Positions 27,727-48,502 of a DNA stretch of 53,555 nt are shown here, piece by piece. Position 1 is the stretch's first letter; each line of letters starts with the position of its first letter. The notes below the pieces were generated by a model. That model had not been told where the DNA came from and searched no databases. It saw nothing but the letters and a program-made list of their open reading frames with translations. The position numbers and the translations under genes were made by a program. The DNA comes from an uncultured Oscillospiraceae bacterium (GTDB taxonomy: Bacteria > Bacillota > Clostridia > Oscillospirales > Oscillospiraceae), in assembly GCA_951801655.1 (NCBI GenBank), contig CATONV010000009.1, positions 1 through 53,555 of the forward strand, written 5' to 3'.

Positions 27727-28473
27727 ATGGCTCTCTTCTCAAAAAAACCGGCGGTCCGGGACGAGGTGGATTTTTCCCGCCTGCCCCGGCACATTGCCAT
27801 CATCATGGACGGCAACGGCCGGTGGGCAAAAAAACGCGGCCTGCCCCGAACGGCGGGCCACGCCGCCGGGGCGGAGACCTTCCGCACCATCGCCACTTAC
27901 TGCAAGGACATCGGACTGGACTATCTCACCGTCTACGCCTTCTCCTCCGAGAACTGGAAGCGGCCGGAGGAGGAGGTGGGGACCATTATGAGTCTGCTGA
28001 AGAAGTATCTGCTGGAGGCGATCAGCCGGATGGAGAGAGACAAGGTGAAGATGGAGTTCTTCGGCGATCTGTCCCCCCTGACACCGGAGCTGCGGGAGCT
28101 GTGTGAGAGAACCCGGGAGATTTCCCGGCACTATGAGGGCTGTCAGGTGAACGTCTGCCTCAACTACGGCGGACGGGACGAACTGGTTCGGGCTGCCAAG
28201 GCCTTTGCCCGGGACTGCGCAGAGGGAAAGGGCGACCCAAACCACCTGACGGAGGAGAAGTTCAGCGGTTATCTCTACTCCGGAGGGGTGCCTGATCCGG
28301 ACCTGATCATCCGTACCAGCGGAGAGCTGCGGCTGTCCAACTTTTTGCTGTGGCAGGCGGCTTATTCGGAGTTCTATATTACAGATGTGCTGTGGCCTGA
28401 CTTCTCCAAGGAGGAGCTGCACCGGGCCATCGCTTCCTATCAGAGCCGGGAACGCCGGTTTGGAGGTGTGTAA
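27727..28473 (+). CDS. uppS: Undecaprenyl diphosphate synthase (isoprenyl transferase)
   Basis: Cis-prenyltransferase that makes the C55 lipid carrier for peptidoglycan and teichoic acids. 248 residues. Catalytic aspartate D28 in IIMDGNGRWAKKRG, YAFSSENW, and RTSGELRLSNFLLWQAAYSE near the C-terminus are family signatures. Followed 1 nt later by cdsA. Confidence 0.97.
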   Translation: MALFSKKPAVRDEVDFSRLPRHIAIIMDGNGRWAKKRGLPRTAGHAAGAETFRTIATYCKDIGLDYLTVYAFSSENWKRPEEEVGTIMSLLKKYLLEAISRMERDKVKMEFFGDLSPLTPELRELCERTREISRHYEGCQVNVCLNYGGRDELVRAAKAFARDCAEGKGDPNHLTEEKFSGYLYSGGVPDPDLIIRTSGELRLSNFLLWQAAYSEFYITDVLWPDFSKEELHRAIASYQSRERRFGGV

Positions 28474-28474
28474 T

Positions 28475-29293
28475 TTGGCAACCCGCATTATTGTGGGCCT
28501 GGCCCTGGGCCCGGCCTTTCTGGCGGCCCTCTTTCTTCTGCCACCCATTCCCCTGGCGGTGATTGTGGCGTTCATTGCGGGGATGGCCTGCTTTGAGCTG
28601 CTGCGGGCGGCGAAGGTGGCCCATCACAATGGCATGTACATTACTGCCGTCCTGGCCGCCGTCCTCATTCCGTTGGGCCACGCACTGGGCCATGGCAGCT
28701 GGACCACCCGGGCGGTGGCGATCCTGCTGATGGCGACCTTGTTTCTCCCAGCCCTGGGGCGCTACGGCACCGGAGGCGAGATTCGTTTTGAGAACATCAT
28801 TGTTTGTCTGTTTGGGGGAATCGGTATCTCCCTGTTCCTATCTGCCCTGGTGGAGCTCAAACGGTTTGACAACGGACAGTTCTATGTGCTTCTCCCGGTA
28901 ATCTGTGCCTTCACCACCGATATTGGGGCCTATTTTTTTGGCGTCTTTCTGGGAAAGCATCGGGGGATCACTCAGGTCAGCCCCAACAAGTCCCTGGAGG
29001 GCTATGTGGGCGGCATCCTGTCCGGATGCCTGTTCATGCTGGTTTATGGGCTGCTGGTTCAGAATTTTGGCGGCCTGCCCGTAAAGCTGCCTGTGATGGC
29101 TCTCTACGGCCTGCTGGGCAGCGCCATCACCGAGATTGGGGATCTCTCCTTCTCTCTCATCAAGCGGCAGTGCGCCGTGAAGGACTACGGTACCCTCCTC
29201 CCCGGCCACGGGGGCATGCTGGACCGATTTGACTCCACCATCTTCGCCGCGCCCATGCTGCTGCTGCTGGTGGAGATTCTGCCGGCGTTTTAG
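28475..29293 (+). CDS. cdsA: Phosphatidate cytidylyltransferase CdsA
   Basis: Membrane enzyme making CDP-diacylglycerol for phospholipid synthesis, 272 residues with about eight membrane helices. The C-terminal signature (KRQCAVKDYGTLLPGHGG then DRFDS) is complete. The TTG start at 28475 follows GGAGGTG inside the uppS end; upstream frame is a uppS shadow. Normally dxr would follow directly, but a two-gene module sits in between. Confidence 0.95.
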   Translation: MATRIIVGLALGPAFLAALFLLPPIPLAVIVAFIAGMACFELLRAAKVAHHNGMYITAVLAAVLIPLGHALGHGSWTTRAVAILLMATLFLPALGRYGTGGEIRFENIIVCLFGGIGISLFLSALVELKRFDNGQFYVLLPVICAFTTDIGAYFFGVFLGKHRGITQVSPNKSLEGYVGGILSGCLFMLVYGLLVQNFGGLPVKLPVMALYGLLGSAITEIGDLSFSLIKRQCAVKDYGTLLPGHGGMLDRFDSTIFAAPMLLLLVEILPAF

Positions 29294-29553
29294 GATGCCA
29301 GGGCGGAAAGTACCTCTTGACGAAGGGATAATCCAAAGAGATAATAGGCGTGGACATACCGGGCAAGATAGGTGGAAAGGTCCTCGTCAAAGGCGTTGGC
29401 CTCCTCTGTTCCCAGCTGCGCCTCCAGGCGTTTCAGATGGGCGTTGTAGCGGCTTTCCGCCTCCCGGAACTCGGGAAGCTGGTTGCAGAAGTGATAAATT
29501 TGCTCGGGGATGTACGGGTTGTCGAGAAAGAGAGTTTTAATCATATCGTTCAT
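29290..29553 (-). CDS. Small helical protein (DUF6809-like), module copy A
   Basis: 87 residues, charged and all-helical, ending YVHAYYLFGLSLRQEVLSAL. The end resembles proteins I know as DUF6809, though that name is from memory. It is clearly paralogous to the protein at 47723-47986 (shared FC...PE, A...LE.L.G, YL.R...YYL.GL.LRQE.L). It runs against the host operon and overlaps the cdsA stop by 4 nt. The ATG at 29553 has AAGGAG 9-10 nt upstream; a TTG at 29562 is too close to it. Divergent from the XRE gene at 29638. Confidence 0.78.
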   Translation of the reverse strand: MNDMIKTLFLDNPYIPEQIYHFCNQLPEFREAESRYNAHLKRLEAQLGTEEANAFDEDLSTYLARYVHAYYLFGLSLRQEVLSALAS

Positions 29554-29579
29554 AGAAAGCAACTCCTTTATATGAGGAA

Positions 29580-29621
29580 ATAACTCGCCTCCATTATAGG
29601 CGAGTTATACCCTCGTGTCAA
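29580..29621 (-). promoter_or_regulatory. Promoter and palindromic operator of module copy A
   Basis: Leftward TTGACA (plus coordinates 29616-29621), 17-bp spacer, TATAAT (29593-29598). A perfect 11-bp inverted repeat (ATAACTCGCCT / AGGCGAGTTAT, about 29580-29608) covers the -10 box and part of the spacer. This is the expected binding site for the adjacent XRE protein. Confidence 0.75.
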
Positions 29622-29637
29622 GGGGCTGGAGGTAATT

Positions 29638-29850
29638 ATGGCAAGTTTTTCGGAACGACTGCGAGGATTGAGAAAAGAACGAGGGTTGAAGCAGAAAGAA
29701 ATGGCGGAAATCTGCGGGTTGAAGGTAAGAAGTTATCAACAGTACGAATATAATGAAAATTATCCAACTGTTCCCGGCCTGGTCTTTCTGGCCGACTATT
29801 TCGGTGTCAGCCTGGATTACCTGATGGGGCGGAAGGACGAGCGCACATAG
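29638..29850 (+). CDS. XRE-family helix-turn-helix regulator, module copy A
   Basis: 70-residue Cro/cI-type DNA-binding protein (LKQKEMAEICGLKVRSYQQYE as helix-turn-helix) ending VSLDYLMGRKDERT, the usual tail of small XRE proteins in Bacillota. Paralogous to the regulator at 48090. GGAGG ribosome site at about 29629. It points in the operon direction and ends 40 nt before dxr, so its promoter may also feed dxr. Confidence 0.88.
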   Translation: MASFSERLRGLRKERGLKQKEMAEICGLKVRSYQQYEYNENYPTVPGLVFLADYFGVSLDYLMGRKDERT

Positions 29851-29890: not shown

Positions 29891-31027
29891 ATGAGCAGAA
29901 AAATCACAGTGTTAGGTTCTACCGGCTCCATCGGGCGGCAGTCATTAGAGGTGATTGCCGCCTGCGGCATGGAGGCGGTGGCCCTGGCGGCCAACTCCAG
30001 TGTTAAGCTGATGGAGGAGCAGGCCCGAACCTTCAGGCCGTCCATTGTCGCTCTGGCGGACGAACGCGCCGCCGCCGATCTGCGGGTGCGTCTGGCGGAC
30101 ACCAATGTTCACGTCCTCAGCGGACTGGAGGGGGTGCTGGAGGCGGCCACCATCTCCAGCGCCGACACGGCGATCGCCGCCCTGGTGGGCATGGTGGGTC
30201 TGCGGCCCACCCTGGCCTCCATCCGGGAGGGCAAGCGGGTGTGTCTGGCCAACAAGGAGACCCTGGTGTGTGCCGGCCCCCTGGTGCTGGAGGAGGCCGC
30301 CGACTATGGGGCCAAAATATACCCCGTGGACTCGGAGCACTCCGCCCTGTTCCAGTGCCTGGAGGCCAACCGGGACCGGGGAGAGGTCAAGCGGCTCATC
30401 CTCACCTGCTCCGGCGGGCCCTTCTATGGCAGAAAGCGGGAGGAACTGGCTGATATAACAGTGGAGGACGCCCTGCGCCACCCCAACTGGTCCATGGGGG
30501 CCAAAATCACCGTGGACTCCGCCACCCTGATGAACAAGGGGTTGGAGGTCATCGAGGCCATGCACCTGTACCGGATGCCGGCGGAAAAAATTTCTGTGGT
30601 GATTCATCGGGAGAGTATCATTCACTCTCTGGTGGAATACTGTGATAATGCCATGATTGCCCAGATGGGGGCGCCGGACATGCGGTTGCCCATTCAGTAT
30701 GCGCTGACCTACCCCAAACGGGTGGCCGGGCCGTCCACGCCGCTGGACCTGTGGAACTGCGGGCCCCTTACCTTTGACTCTCCCGACCTGGAGGCTTTCC
30801 CCTGCCTGACTCTGGCCCTGAAGGCGGCCGAAACAGGCGGCACCGCCGGAGCCATCCTCAACGGCGCCAACGAGGCGGCAGTGGGGCTGTTTTTGGAGGG
30901 GAAAATCGGCTTCCTGGACATCCCCGCTAGGGTGGAGAAGGCCATGGCCCAAGTCAAGGCGGTGCAGAACCCCACCATGCAGGATATTCTGAACGCAGAC
31001 AAGGCGGCGCGGGAAATCGTTCTGTAG
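29891..31027 (+). CDS. dxr: 1-deoxy-D-xylulose 5-phosphate reductoisomerase
   Basis: Second step of the MEP isoprenoid pathway (DXP to MEP, NADPH-dependent). 378 residues. NADPH loop GSTGSIGRQ (8-16), LANKETLVCAG, and the metal/substrate motif PVDSEHSALFQCL are intact. The stop codon TAG is the start of a dispersed TGTAGGGGCGG repeat. Works with ispG downstream in the same pathway. Confidence 0.97.
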   Translation: MSRKITVLGSTGSIGRQSLEVIAACGMEAVALAANSSVKLMEEQARTFRPSIVALADERAAADLRVRLADTNVHVLSGLEGVLEAATISSADTAIAALVGMVGLRPTLASIREGKRVCLANKETLVCAGPLVLEEAADYGAKIYPVDSEHSALFQCLEANRDRGEVKRLILTCSGGPFYGRKREELADITVEDALRHPNWSMGAKITVDSATLMNKGLEVIEAMHLYRMPAEKISVVIHRESIIHSLVEYCDNAMIAQMGAPDMRLPIQYALTYPKRVAGPSTPLDLWNCGPLTFDSPDLEAFPCLTLALKAAETGGTAGAILNGANEAAVGLFLEGKIGFLDIPARVEKAMAQVKAVQNPTMQDILNADKAAREIVL

Positions 31028-47737: not shown

Positions 47738-47986
47738 AATCGCCTGCAAAAACTCTTGACGAAGGCCCAGCCCGTAGAGATAATAGAGGTCGGCGGTGCG
47801 GTACAGATAGGCCCACAGGCTTTTTTCAAACGCGTCGTACAGACCGGGACCGACCAATTTCTCAATTTGGTCTGCGATCTTGTAAAATCCTTGTTTGGCT
47901 TTATGGTATTCCGGGTCGCTGGCGCAGAACGCCTCGATGTTCTCAATGACTGTTTCGTTGAGGAATAGAGACGGCAGTGTGTTCAT
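47723..47986 (-). CDS. Small helical protein (DUF6809-like), module copy B
   Basis: 87 residues, all-helical, ending DLYYLYGLGLRQEFLQAI. Paralogue of the protein at 29290-29553. AGGAGG about 9 nt before the ATG. Divergent from the XRE gene at 48090. No catalytic or membrane feature is visible. Confidence 0.8.
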   Translation of the reverse strand: MNTLPSLFLNETVIENIEAFCASDPEYHKAKQGFYKIADQIEKLVGPGLYDAFEKSLWAYLYRTADLYYLYGLGLRQEFLQAIGAGG

Positions 47987-48004: not shown

Positions 48005-48071
48005 TTGATATTAAAATTAATAGTATTACTATTGATATCAATATTATAACTCGAAAGCCTTTTTCTGTCAA
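48005..48071 (-). promoter_or_regulatory. Promoter and AT-rich palindromes of module copy B
   Basis: Leftward TTGACA (plus coordinates 48066-48071), 17-bp spacer, TATAAT (48043-48048). Just downstream are the palindromes ATTGATATCAAT (48031-48042) and AATAGTATTACTATT (about 48019-48033), probable binding sites of the XRE protein. The -35 lies only 18 nt from the XRE start codon, as in copy A. Confidence 0.72.
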
Positions 48072-48317: not shown

Positions 48318-48502
48318 AAAGGCTCCTTTTGAAAGGAGCTGTCAGCCGCAGGCTGACTGAGGATTGCGTCCGGCGAAGCCGGACATACGAAGTAAACAGG
48401 ACTTCTGAGTACCGATTTGCTTCGCATATTTTGGCTTCGCCAAAATACAATCCTCCGTCATCCGCTTCGCGGATGCCACCTCCTTTCAAAAAGGAGGCTT
48501 TT
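48318..48502. repeat. MITE-like hairpin-rich repeat
   Basis: About 185 bp with imperfect terminal inverted repeats of about 48 bp: AAAGGCTCCTTTTGAAAGGA at the left and its counterpart TCCTTTCAAAAAGGAGGCTT at the right, each leading inward to (GA)GGATTG / CAATCC(TC). The inside is a chain of short hairpins capped with CTTCG/CGAAG (GTCCGGCGAAGCCGGAC, ATTTTGGCTTCGCCAAAAT, CATCCGCTTCGCGGATG). No transposase. It separates module copy B from glmM. Confidence 0.82.

Follow-up and report, generated by a model that had tools for sequence, protein, structure and literature searches.

Divergent XRE-regulator/small-protein modules nested antisense in operons of an Oscillospiraceae bacterium: candidate transcriptional switches

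Two copies of a small two-gene module were found in a 53,555 nt stretch of DNA (hereafter the window; contig CATONV010000009.1) from an uncultured Oscillospiraceae bacterium, whose 2.54-Mb genome falls in the Lawsonibacter/Flavonifractor group. In each, a gene for an XRE-type regulator read in the direction of the surrounding genes faces a divergent gene for a small helical protein (the payload) that runs against them; the first copy lies between cdsA and dxr (Table 1). We found about 20 such modules in the genome, and consider it probable that they are small transcriptional switches, each nested antisense in a housekeeping operon. This reading draws on features seen directly in the DNA: the gene arrangement, promoter-like elements, repeats, co-variation of these repeats with the XRE, invariant codons, constant orientation and purifying selection.

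Results

Number and orientation of the modules in the source genome

Searches of the source genome with the first window payload (P0001) led to six places, with DUF6809 at a loose E-value to 14, and with the XRE to 47. After the surroundings were read, 20 divergent XRE/small-protein pairs were retained, 18 of them clear and two marginal; partner open reading frames (ORFs) were chosen by profile, ribosome-site and motif criteria, as well as by eye. The initial annotation had described two self-contained two-gene units with their own divergent control; both pairs are real and lie where it placed them, but its count of two falls well short of the ∼20 present. XRE length across the modules is 69–81 aa, each regulator facing a small helical payload gene, and the gap between the two genes measures 67–103 nt in 18 modules, the marginal two having gaps of 46 and 59 nt. 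In most modules the payload gene's 3′ end overlaps the upstream gene or is at most ∼20 nt away (in copy 1, as first described, the gene runs against the operon and its stop overlaps that of cdsA at 29291–29293), whilst the XRE stop overlaps the start of the next gene in loci L002, L011 and L033. Flanking genes look housekeeping-like, with names read by eye from the proteins: infB-rbfA, recX-rimO, dut-maf, dprA-topA, smc-ftsY, ecfT, truA and hemZ.

Orientation is constant: in 20/20 modules all flanks seen share the XRE direction and are opposed by the payload, one downstream flank lying beyond a contig end. Flank directions were taken from coding-potential maps, an automatic table (14/20 modules evaluated) and, for copy 1, direct reading; for the six modules that a motif filter dropped from the table, the other readings were used. 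Within the table, flanks are sense to the XRE in 14/14 cases upstream and 13/13 downstream. If orientation were free, 20/20 would occur with a chance of ∼2 in a million by simple arithmetic that ignores insertion bias. The closest P0001 paralogues in this genome are 44 % identical, and no near-identical copies were seen at new sites. The two window copies share 36 % identity between their helical proteins and 51 % between their XREs. A divergent pair of another kind, apparently of two DNA-binding proteins, was also noted at L044 (G000:C27:10244): opposite a short XRE lies a small protein judged by eye to be ribbon-helix-helix-like (RHH-like).

A near-consensus payload promoter with XRE-tracking repeats

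The payload promoter is a perfect TTGACA-N17-TATAAT in both window copies, and its −35 hexamer stands 16 nt (copy 1) and 18 nt (copy 2) from the XRE ATG, all as initially annotated. We scored it over 48 modules, namely the two window copies and 46 related loci with an XRE; L142, L143 and L178, which lack an XRE, are thus absent from the promoter and operator sets. Agreement with the consensus was 12/12 in 30 modules, 11/12 in 16, 10/12 in one and 9/12 in one, whereas shuffled controls reached 11/12 in 0.1 % of cases and 12/12 never; these shuffles, like those for the paired repeats and the gap promoter below, preserve base composition only. Within the source genome, 18/20 modules score 10–12/12. 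Moreover, perfect TTGACA/TATAAT promoters with a spacing of 16–18 number 70 in the whole genome, against 0 for a reversed-pattern control, and 10 of these 70 are module payload promoters by their coordinates.

Direct repeats bracket the −10 hexamer, with at least 10 of 13 bases matching in 29/47 modules compared with 1.3 % of shuffles and ∼7 % of cross-module combinations (L141, which has no clear promoter, was left out of the operator tests); in the relative L138, ACGAG-N7-CTCGT was read by eye at both candidate operator places. Operator similarity tracks the XRE (partial Mantel r 0.43, 0/2000 permutations), the value for the payload being 0.12 (p 0.0035; n=45, L171 and L175 excluded). Individual pairs of loci show the same exchange: L147 and L159 are 99 % identical in XRE and 94 % in gap DNA but 48 % in payload, whilst L147 and L148 are 99 % identical in payload but 73 % in XRE and 57 % in gap DNA. 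A preset search for pairs with payloads at least 85 % and XREs at most 70 % identical returned none, L147/L148 lying just outside these limits.

The palindromes reported at the −10 are present, an 11-bp repeat spanning it in copy 1 and TATTGATATCAATA beside it in copy 2. The segment TCAAGGGG, held to be conserved ahead of the XRE, fares less well: it is in part merely the reverse complement of the −35 hexamer (CCCCTTGA), and CCCC precedes TTGACA in 12/43 scored modules.

A predicted XRE promoter within the payload coding sequence

The initial annotation missed a second promoter-like element inside the helical gene. On the XRE-sense strand, TTGACG-N17-GATAAT lies within the payload 3′ end in 39/48 intact genes, and these are exactly the LRQE-type genes (39/39). 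To collect the 49 related loci, genome contigs were scanned once with DNA patterns encoding YLFGL[GS]LR[QR]E. Since the pattern builds this peptide in, finding it conserved among the loci proves nothing; the codons were left free. When loci were instead chosen by whole-protein search, the buried promoter was present in 25/25 LRQ genes and 0/5 others, largely from the same species (5/35 loci were not scored). The exact pattern has five copies in the source genome, three of them in modules. Additionally, the two payload genes with frameshifts both keep it, as do the remnant L178 and the loci with an RHH-like replacement regulator.

Codons under or beside the hexamers are fixed or almost fixed, CGT, CAA and CTC in 39/39 genes, TAT in 39/39 and 38/39, and GAG in 37/39; among codons for the same amino acid in eight window genes, CGT is used at 5 %, CAA at 6 %, CTC at 18 % and TAT at 29 %. 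Excess synonymous conservation is 0.47–0.75 at the invariant codons, −0.03 to 0.24 between the hexamers and 0.13 on average over 49 columns (the broken payloads L171, L175 and L178 were excluded from the codon and substitution-rate sets). In LRRE-type genes a similar peptide is retained although the promoter is absent, and protein and DNA constraints may therefore coexist. In LRQE-type modules the payload promoter and the buried promoter are opposed and ∼240 bp apart; with predicted starts near 29352(+) and 29586(−) in copy 1, the two transcripts would overlap by ∼235 nt.

The gap, searched in 48 modules, yielded no strong XRE-ward promoter. In the hemZ-site LRRE modules L157, L158, L160–L162 and L164, TTGTCN-N17-TATA(C/G)T recurs at a single position in the payload 5′ end and is another candidate XRE promoter; this element occurs in 6/9 listed LRRE modules, and in L143 too.

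Distribution in relatives and history of the cdsA-dxr site

The 49 loci lie in records named Lawsonibacter, Colidextribacter, Pseudoflavonifractor, Flintibacter, Oscillospiraceae, and uncultured Firmicutes, Clostridium and bacteria. A divergent XRE stands at 68–100 nt (median 81) in 46/49. The helical gene is intact in 46/49, 44 beside an XRE and two beside another small protein that we interpret as a DNA-binding regulator, such that an intact payload is always accompanied by an intact divergent regulator (46/46). L171 and L175 retain an intact XRE beside a frameshifted payload, and L178 keeps only the end of the payload and no XRE. As a side observation, L054, L070 and L076 have one payload gene beside two XRE genes, apparently tandem duplicates. 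Six sites hold 46/49 loci: ecfT-truA (16), cdsA-dxr (nine), metallo-hydrolase-hemZ (eight), a lipid-kinase-like gene (six), a dacF-like gene (four) and glmM (three); the remaining three lie at other places. All identified flanks again share the XRE direction (46/46 loci).

Matches to P0001 occur in 26/60 genomes, the source genome counted, all of one genus. The A3 profile matches 2/150 genomes of the family and 1/291 of the class, the source genome being one in each. Among 30 loci examined outside the genus, a module is clear at L226 and possible at L232; at 11 loci all XREs were too long for scoring, and L257 yielded none. The initial annotation had named two findings that would speak against its module, namely homologues mostly without a divergent XRE and an insertion ancestral to the whole order. 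Neither was encountered, given the 44/46 intact genes with an XRE and the narrow range of the A3 profile, and its view that the helical gene comes with a divergent regulator agrees with the 46/46 above.

At cdsA-dxr, 30 genomes with dxr were compared by tblastn: eight have a full module, two have remnants (part of the XRE in L091; an apparent payload tail, judged by eye, in L094), 19 have none and one, L104, could not be judged on a stretch without cdsA. As had been supposed, the two genes are contiguous elsewhere, with 13-nt junctions in the module-free relatives L086 and L087. The ninth filled site is L054, on a contig ending before dxr. On a dxr+rseP tree, one well-supported clade of 15 genomes contains both remnants and seven full modules, and six of its members have no module; the remaining full module belongs to G018, outside the clade. 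The simplest reading is one old gain followed by repeated losses and one transfer into G018. In G018 (L053/L100), cdsA is 83 % and dxr 77 % identical to the window's genes, and since cdsA is the closer of the two and the module is present in spite of the distant tree position, recombination of a cdsA–module segment is likely.

Phage, plasmid and viral-contig collections held no relative of P0001, and the phage search was likewise negative for two other payload types; a canonical DUF6809 protein matched two plasmid and three phage records. The suggestion of a recent mobile duplication is thereby undercut, as it is by the six conserved sites and the old gain at cdsA-dxr.

Selection, protein families and an exchanged regulator

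Median ratios of non-synonymous to synonymous substitution (dN/dS; pairs with dS <1.5) were obtained at three sites. In site order, with cdsA-dxr first, the payload gave 0.23, 0.31 and 0.20 and the XRE 0.10, 0.19 and 0.05; the XRE value of 0.05 rests on 8/28 pairs, and L142 and L143 are outside the set. With such low ratios, payload and XRE both look like real constrained proteins. Pfam detected nothing beyond a helix-turn-helix (HTH) domain in either window XRE, and antitoxin models matched the XREs weakly, far under their cut-offs. The payloads miss the 27-bit cut-off of DUF6809 (PF20648), P0001 scoring 15.4 bits and the second payload (P0003) not matching. NCBIfam, PHROGs and PADLOC gave no function for the window payloads and PADLOC no match to either; the sole match there was a weak one of the second payload to a PHROG of unknown function (E 0.003).

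Module payloads resemble DUF6809 proteins in size and in a C-terminal G-x-x-L-G-like helix (by eye), and those of L008, L009 and L011 exceed the cut-off. They differ in context: only 3/30 top-scoring DUF6809 loci have an XRE-like ORF in the stretch, of which two are co-directional and one lies ∼640 nt off, and none is module-like by eye. The genome's best DUF6809 match, L007 (G000:C18:20172-20420), lacks an XRE in its stretch, and the next gene looks integrase-like by eye.

In two genomes (loci L142 and L143) an unrelated divergent small protein, RHH-like by eye, takes the place of the XRE upstream of the payload gene. It ends in a tail, APDGTA, similar to the XRE tails of L139 and L171, which suggests replacement in place. 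Across 37 genomes this regulator occurs at 18 places, and among the seven viewed only L179 (the L142 locus) is paired with a payload.

Discussion

Proposed switch

In the arrangement that we propose, the XRE would bind paired operators bracketing the −10 of the near-perfect promoter and thereby keep the payload gene silent. The XRE would itself be transcribed in the same direction as the operon, driven in modules of LRQE type by a weaker promoter opposite the payload 3′ code, and operon read-through probably feeds it as well; terminator-like sites on the + strand were found neither between cdsA and dxr nor, for copy 2, between the upstream gene and glmM. With its promoter buried in the payload gene, XRE transcription would run antisense through that gene, and payload transcription would in turn enter the XRE leader and the upstream operon gene. 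Two exclusive states could result: one with XRE and read-through on and payload off, the other with XRE lost and payload strongly on, the latter imposing antisense interference on the operon. Promoter activity, repression, read-through and bistability, and a payload acting as an effector kept tightly off, are what we infer from the DNA. The strongest parts of the proposal are the promoter in invariant codons and the 20/20 orientation, and the weakest is function.

Several observations weigh against this proposal. The direct repeats are poor in both window copies (7/13 each), and the palindrome test around the −10 is weakly positive (largest z 2.4; four near-duplicate rows left out). The buried promoter is absent from 9/48 payload genes, all of LRRE type, and occupies that place in only 3/20 own-genome modules, so that other modules must supply XRE differently. 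XRE-ward promoter-like matches of at least 9/12 occur in the gap in 20/48 modules compared with 13 % of shuffles, and this mild excess makes a second XRE promoter there possible. Codons for L47, P27 and A69, away from the buried promoter, also show synonymous conservation of 0.80–0.90 (excess 0.49–0.55), none being invariant. Lastly, two of the 20 modules, L033 and L037, lack a consensus payload promoter and encode only very short payloads.

A more far-reaching version of the switch is speculative and, in our estimation, a long shot. The ∼20 modules would make up an array, present across the genus, of sentinels that independently monitor housekeeping transcription, each with an operon-fed XRE specific to its own operators; shutdown of operon or host, for example by phage, would let the XRE decay, whereupon the consensus promoter would switch on the silenced effector and the operon be blocked. 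Placing the XRE promoter within the effector's code would make the silencer hard to lose whilst the effector is intact.

Alternative explanations

The modules could instead be toxin–repressor addiction modules of the RacR/YdaST kind, in which the payload is toxic and loss of the XRE kills or arrests the cell, a tentative reading that we take seriously. An intact payload never occurs without an intact divergent regulator, whilst the reverse, an intact XRE with a broken payload, does exist; the payload's orientation escapes operon read-through in 20/20 modules, and the strength of its promoter calls for tight repression. RacR is moreover described as a divergently coded repressor that suffices to silence toxic genes (PMC5700373). 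Against a toxic payload stand the seeming loss of the module at cdsA-dxr in several genomes and the lack of a PADLOC match for either window payload.

SinI acts on SinR, and by that model the helical protein might act on the XRE as corepressor or anti-repressor. The constant pairing and gap, together with XREs in which Pfam shows an HTH alone, agree with such a pair, but XREs and payloads have been re-paired among modules, and the payload remains intact where an RHH-like regulator has replaced the XRE; we consider it improbable. Re-pairing and replacement likewise count against any strictly cognate XRE–payload protein pair.

To a similar, low degree we credit a rheostat in which antisense control of the host operon is the main function and the payload protein is minor. 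The unidirectional, housekeeping-like flanks favour it, as does the Staphylococcus aureus case, where a nested antisense gene is described as lowering MenE and MenC (PMC7154746), whereas purifying selection on the payload protein (median dN/dS 0.20–0.31) does not fit a minor role.

It is very unlikely that the XRE neutralizes the payload by direct binding as in a type II toxin–antitoxin system. Small size, adjacency, co-occurrence and the weak, far sub-threshold antitoxin-model matches are what one would expect of it, but the genes do not form one operon, being divergent in 46/49 loci and without an XRE in the other three; near-identical payloads are paired with XREs that share 73 % identity, near-identical XREs with payloads that share 48 %, and two payloads stand beside an RHH-like protein in place of the XRE. 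Finally, a recently mobile two-gene element, to which many paralogues in one genome and the recombination suggested by G018 might point, can be largely discounted in view of the six conserved sites, the mere two genes per module, neither recombinase-like, and the absence of P0001 relatives from the phage, plasmid and viral collections.

Comparison with known systems

Returning to the proposed switch, we find that it combines features of three kinds of known system: the noncontiguous operon, the RacR-type pair and pCF10-type face-to-face promoters. A repressor takes part in the face-to-face switches of pCF10, coliphage 186 and lambda. Such promoters are described as acting as switches at pCF10 prgX/prgQ, 186 pR/pL and lambda PR/PRE (PMC4519249). 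The LRQE-type modules have opposed promoter-like sequences whose transcripts would overlap, but are chromosomal and nested in housekeeping operons, with a repressor promoter that overlaps conserved payload codons.

Nested antisense genes with reciprocal expression are described for the noncontiguous operon menE-menC-MW1733-ytkD of S. aureus (PMC7154746) and for Tha/Ith of phage 80alpha (PMC11087260). As in the noncontiguous operon, an opposite-strand gene lies between operon genes, by gene direction in 20/20 modules, and has its own promoter as predicted from sequence alone in 18/20 (10–12/12 consensus); reciprocal expression would be expected. The modules differ in adding their own repressor gene in the operon direction, and in being repeated at ∼20 sites in one genome.

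RacR of the Escherichia coli rac prophage is described as a divergent repressor that silences the toxic YdaS-YdaT genes by repression alone (PMC5700373). The modules resemble it in arrangement, with a repressor divergent to small genes and repeats in the shared intergenic region, although these are weak in the two window copies. They depart from it in having one payload gene instead of two, a predicted XRE promoter buried in the payload, and housekeeping-like flanks in place of a prophage, no phage relatives having been found for P0001 or the two other payload types. A locus with a toxin–antitoxin system has also been described as bistably expressed (PMC8630535). Our literature searches found no paper on the DUF6809 family or on toxin–antitoxin systems in Lawsonibacter/Flavonifractor, and one that combined divergent Xre repressors with toxins and RacR matched none.

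Antisense genes nested in operons have been presented as individual cases in reports such as PMC7154746 and PMC11087260. Here, ∼20 paralogous nested modules in one genome share one orientation, with module-specific operators and an exchangeable regulator, and a protein-coding sequence apparently bears an opposite-strand promoter, visible as invariant uncommon codons. They would thus offer a natural replicated set for studying switches built from antisense interference and repression, as well as an entry point to the DUF6809-like family.

Features of the window

Table 1. Genes and mapped features of the two modules in the window
Feature	Position	Strand	Remarks and basis
cdsA	28385..29293	+	Upstream gene of host operon; ORF list, tblastn to relatives, junction table
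Payload copy 1 (P0001), helical, 87 aa	29290..29553	-	Antisense to operon; ORF reading
Predicted XRE promoter, copy 1, TTGACG-N17-GATAAT	29317..29345	+	Antisense within payload coding sequence; promoter scan
Candidate operator, second of pair, CGAG-N7-CTCA	29573..29587	.	Direct sequence reading, paired-repeat test
11-bp inverted repeat spanning payload −10, copy 1	29580..29608	.	Palindrome reading
Payload promoter, copy 1, TTGACA-N17-TATAAT	29593..29621	-	Promoter scan
Candidate operator, first of pair, CGAG-N7-CTCG	29601..29615	.	Inside promoter spacer; direct sequence reading
XRE repressor copy 1, 70 aa	29638..29850	+	Direction of operon; Pfam HTH_3, E 1.9e-12
dxr	29891..31027	+	Downstream gene of host operon
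Payload copy 2, 87 aa	47723..47986	-	ORF reading
Predicted XRE promoter, copy 2, TTGACG-N17-GATAAT	47756..47784	+	Inside payload gene; promoter scan
Two overlapping palindromes, copy 2, TATTGATATCAATA and AATAGTA-a-TACTATT	48019..48043	.	TATTGATATCAATA adjoins −10
Payload promoter, copy 2, TTGACA-N17-TATAAT	48043..48071	-	Promoter scan
XRE repressor copy 2, 73 aa	48090..48311	+	ORF reading, family search

Additionally, several modules have a neighbouring repeat with GTCAGCCGCAGGCTGACTGAGGATT, at 48341–48365 in the window and at L004, L005, L020, L031 and L138; its 23-base core is present in 14/260 loci, some of them overlapping.

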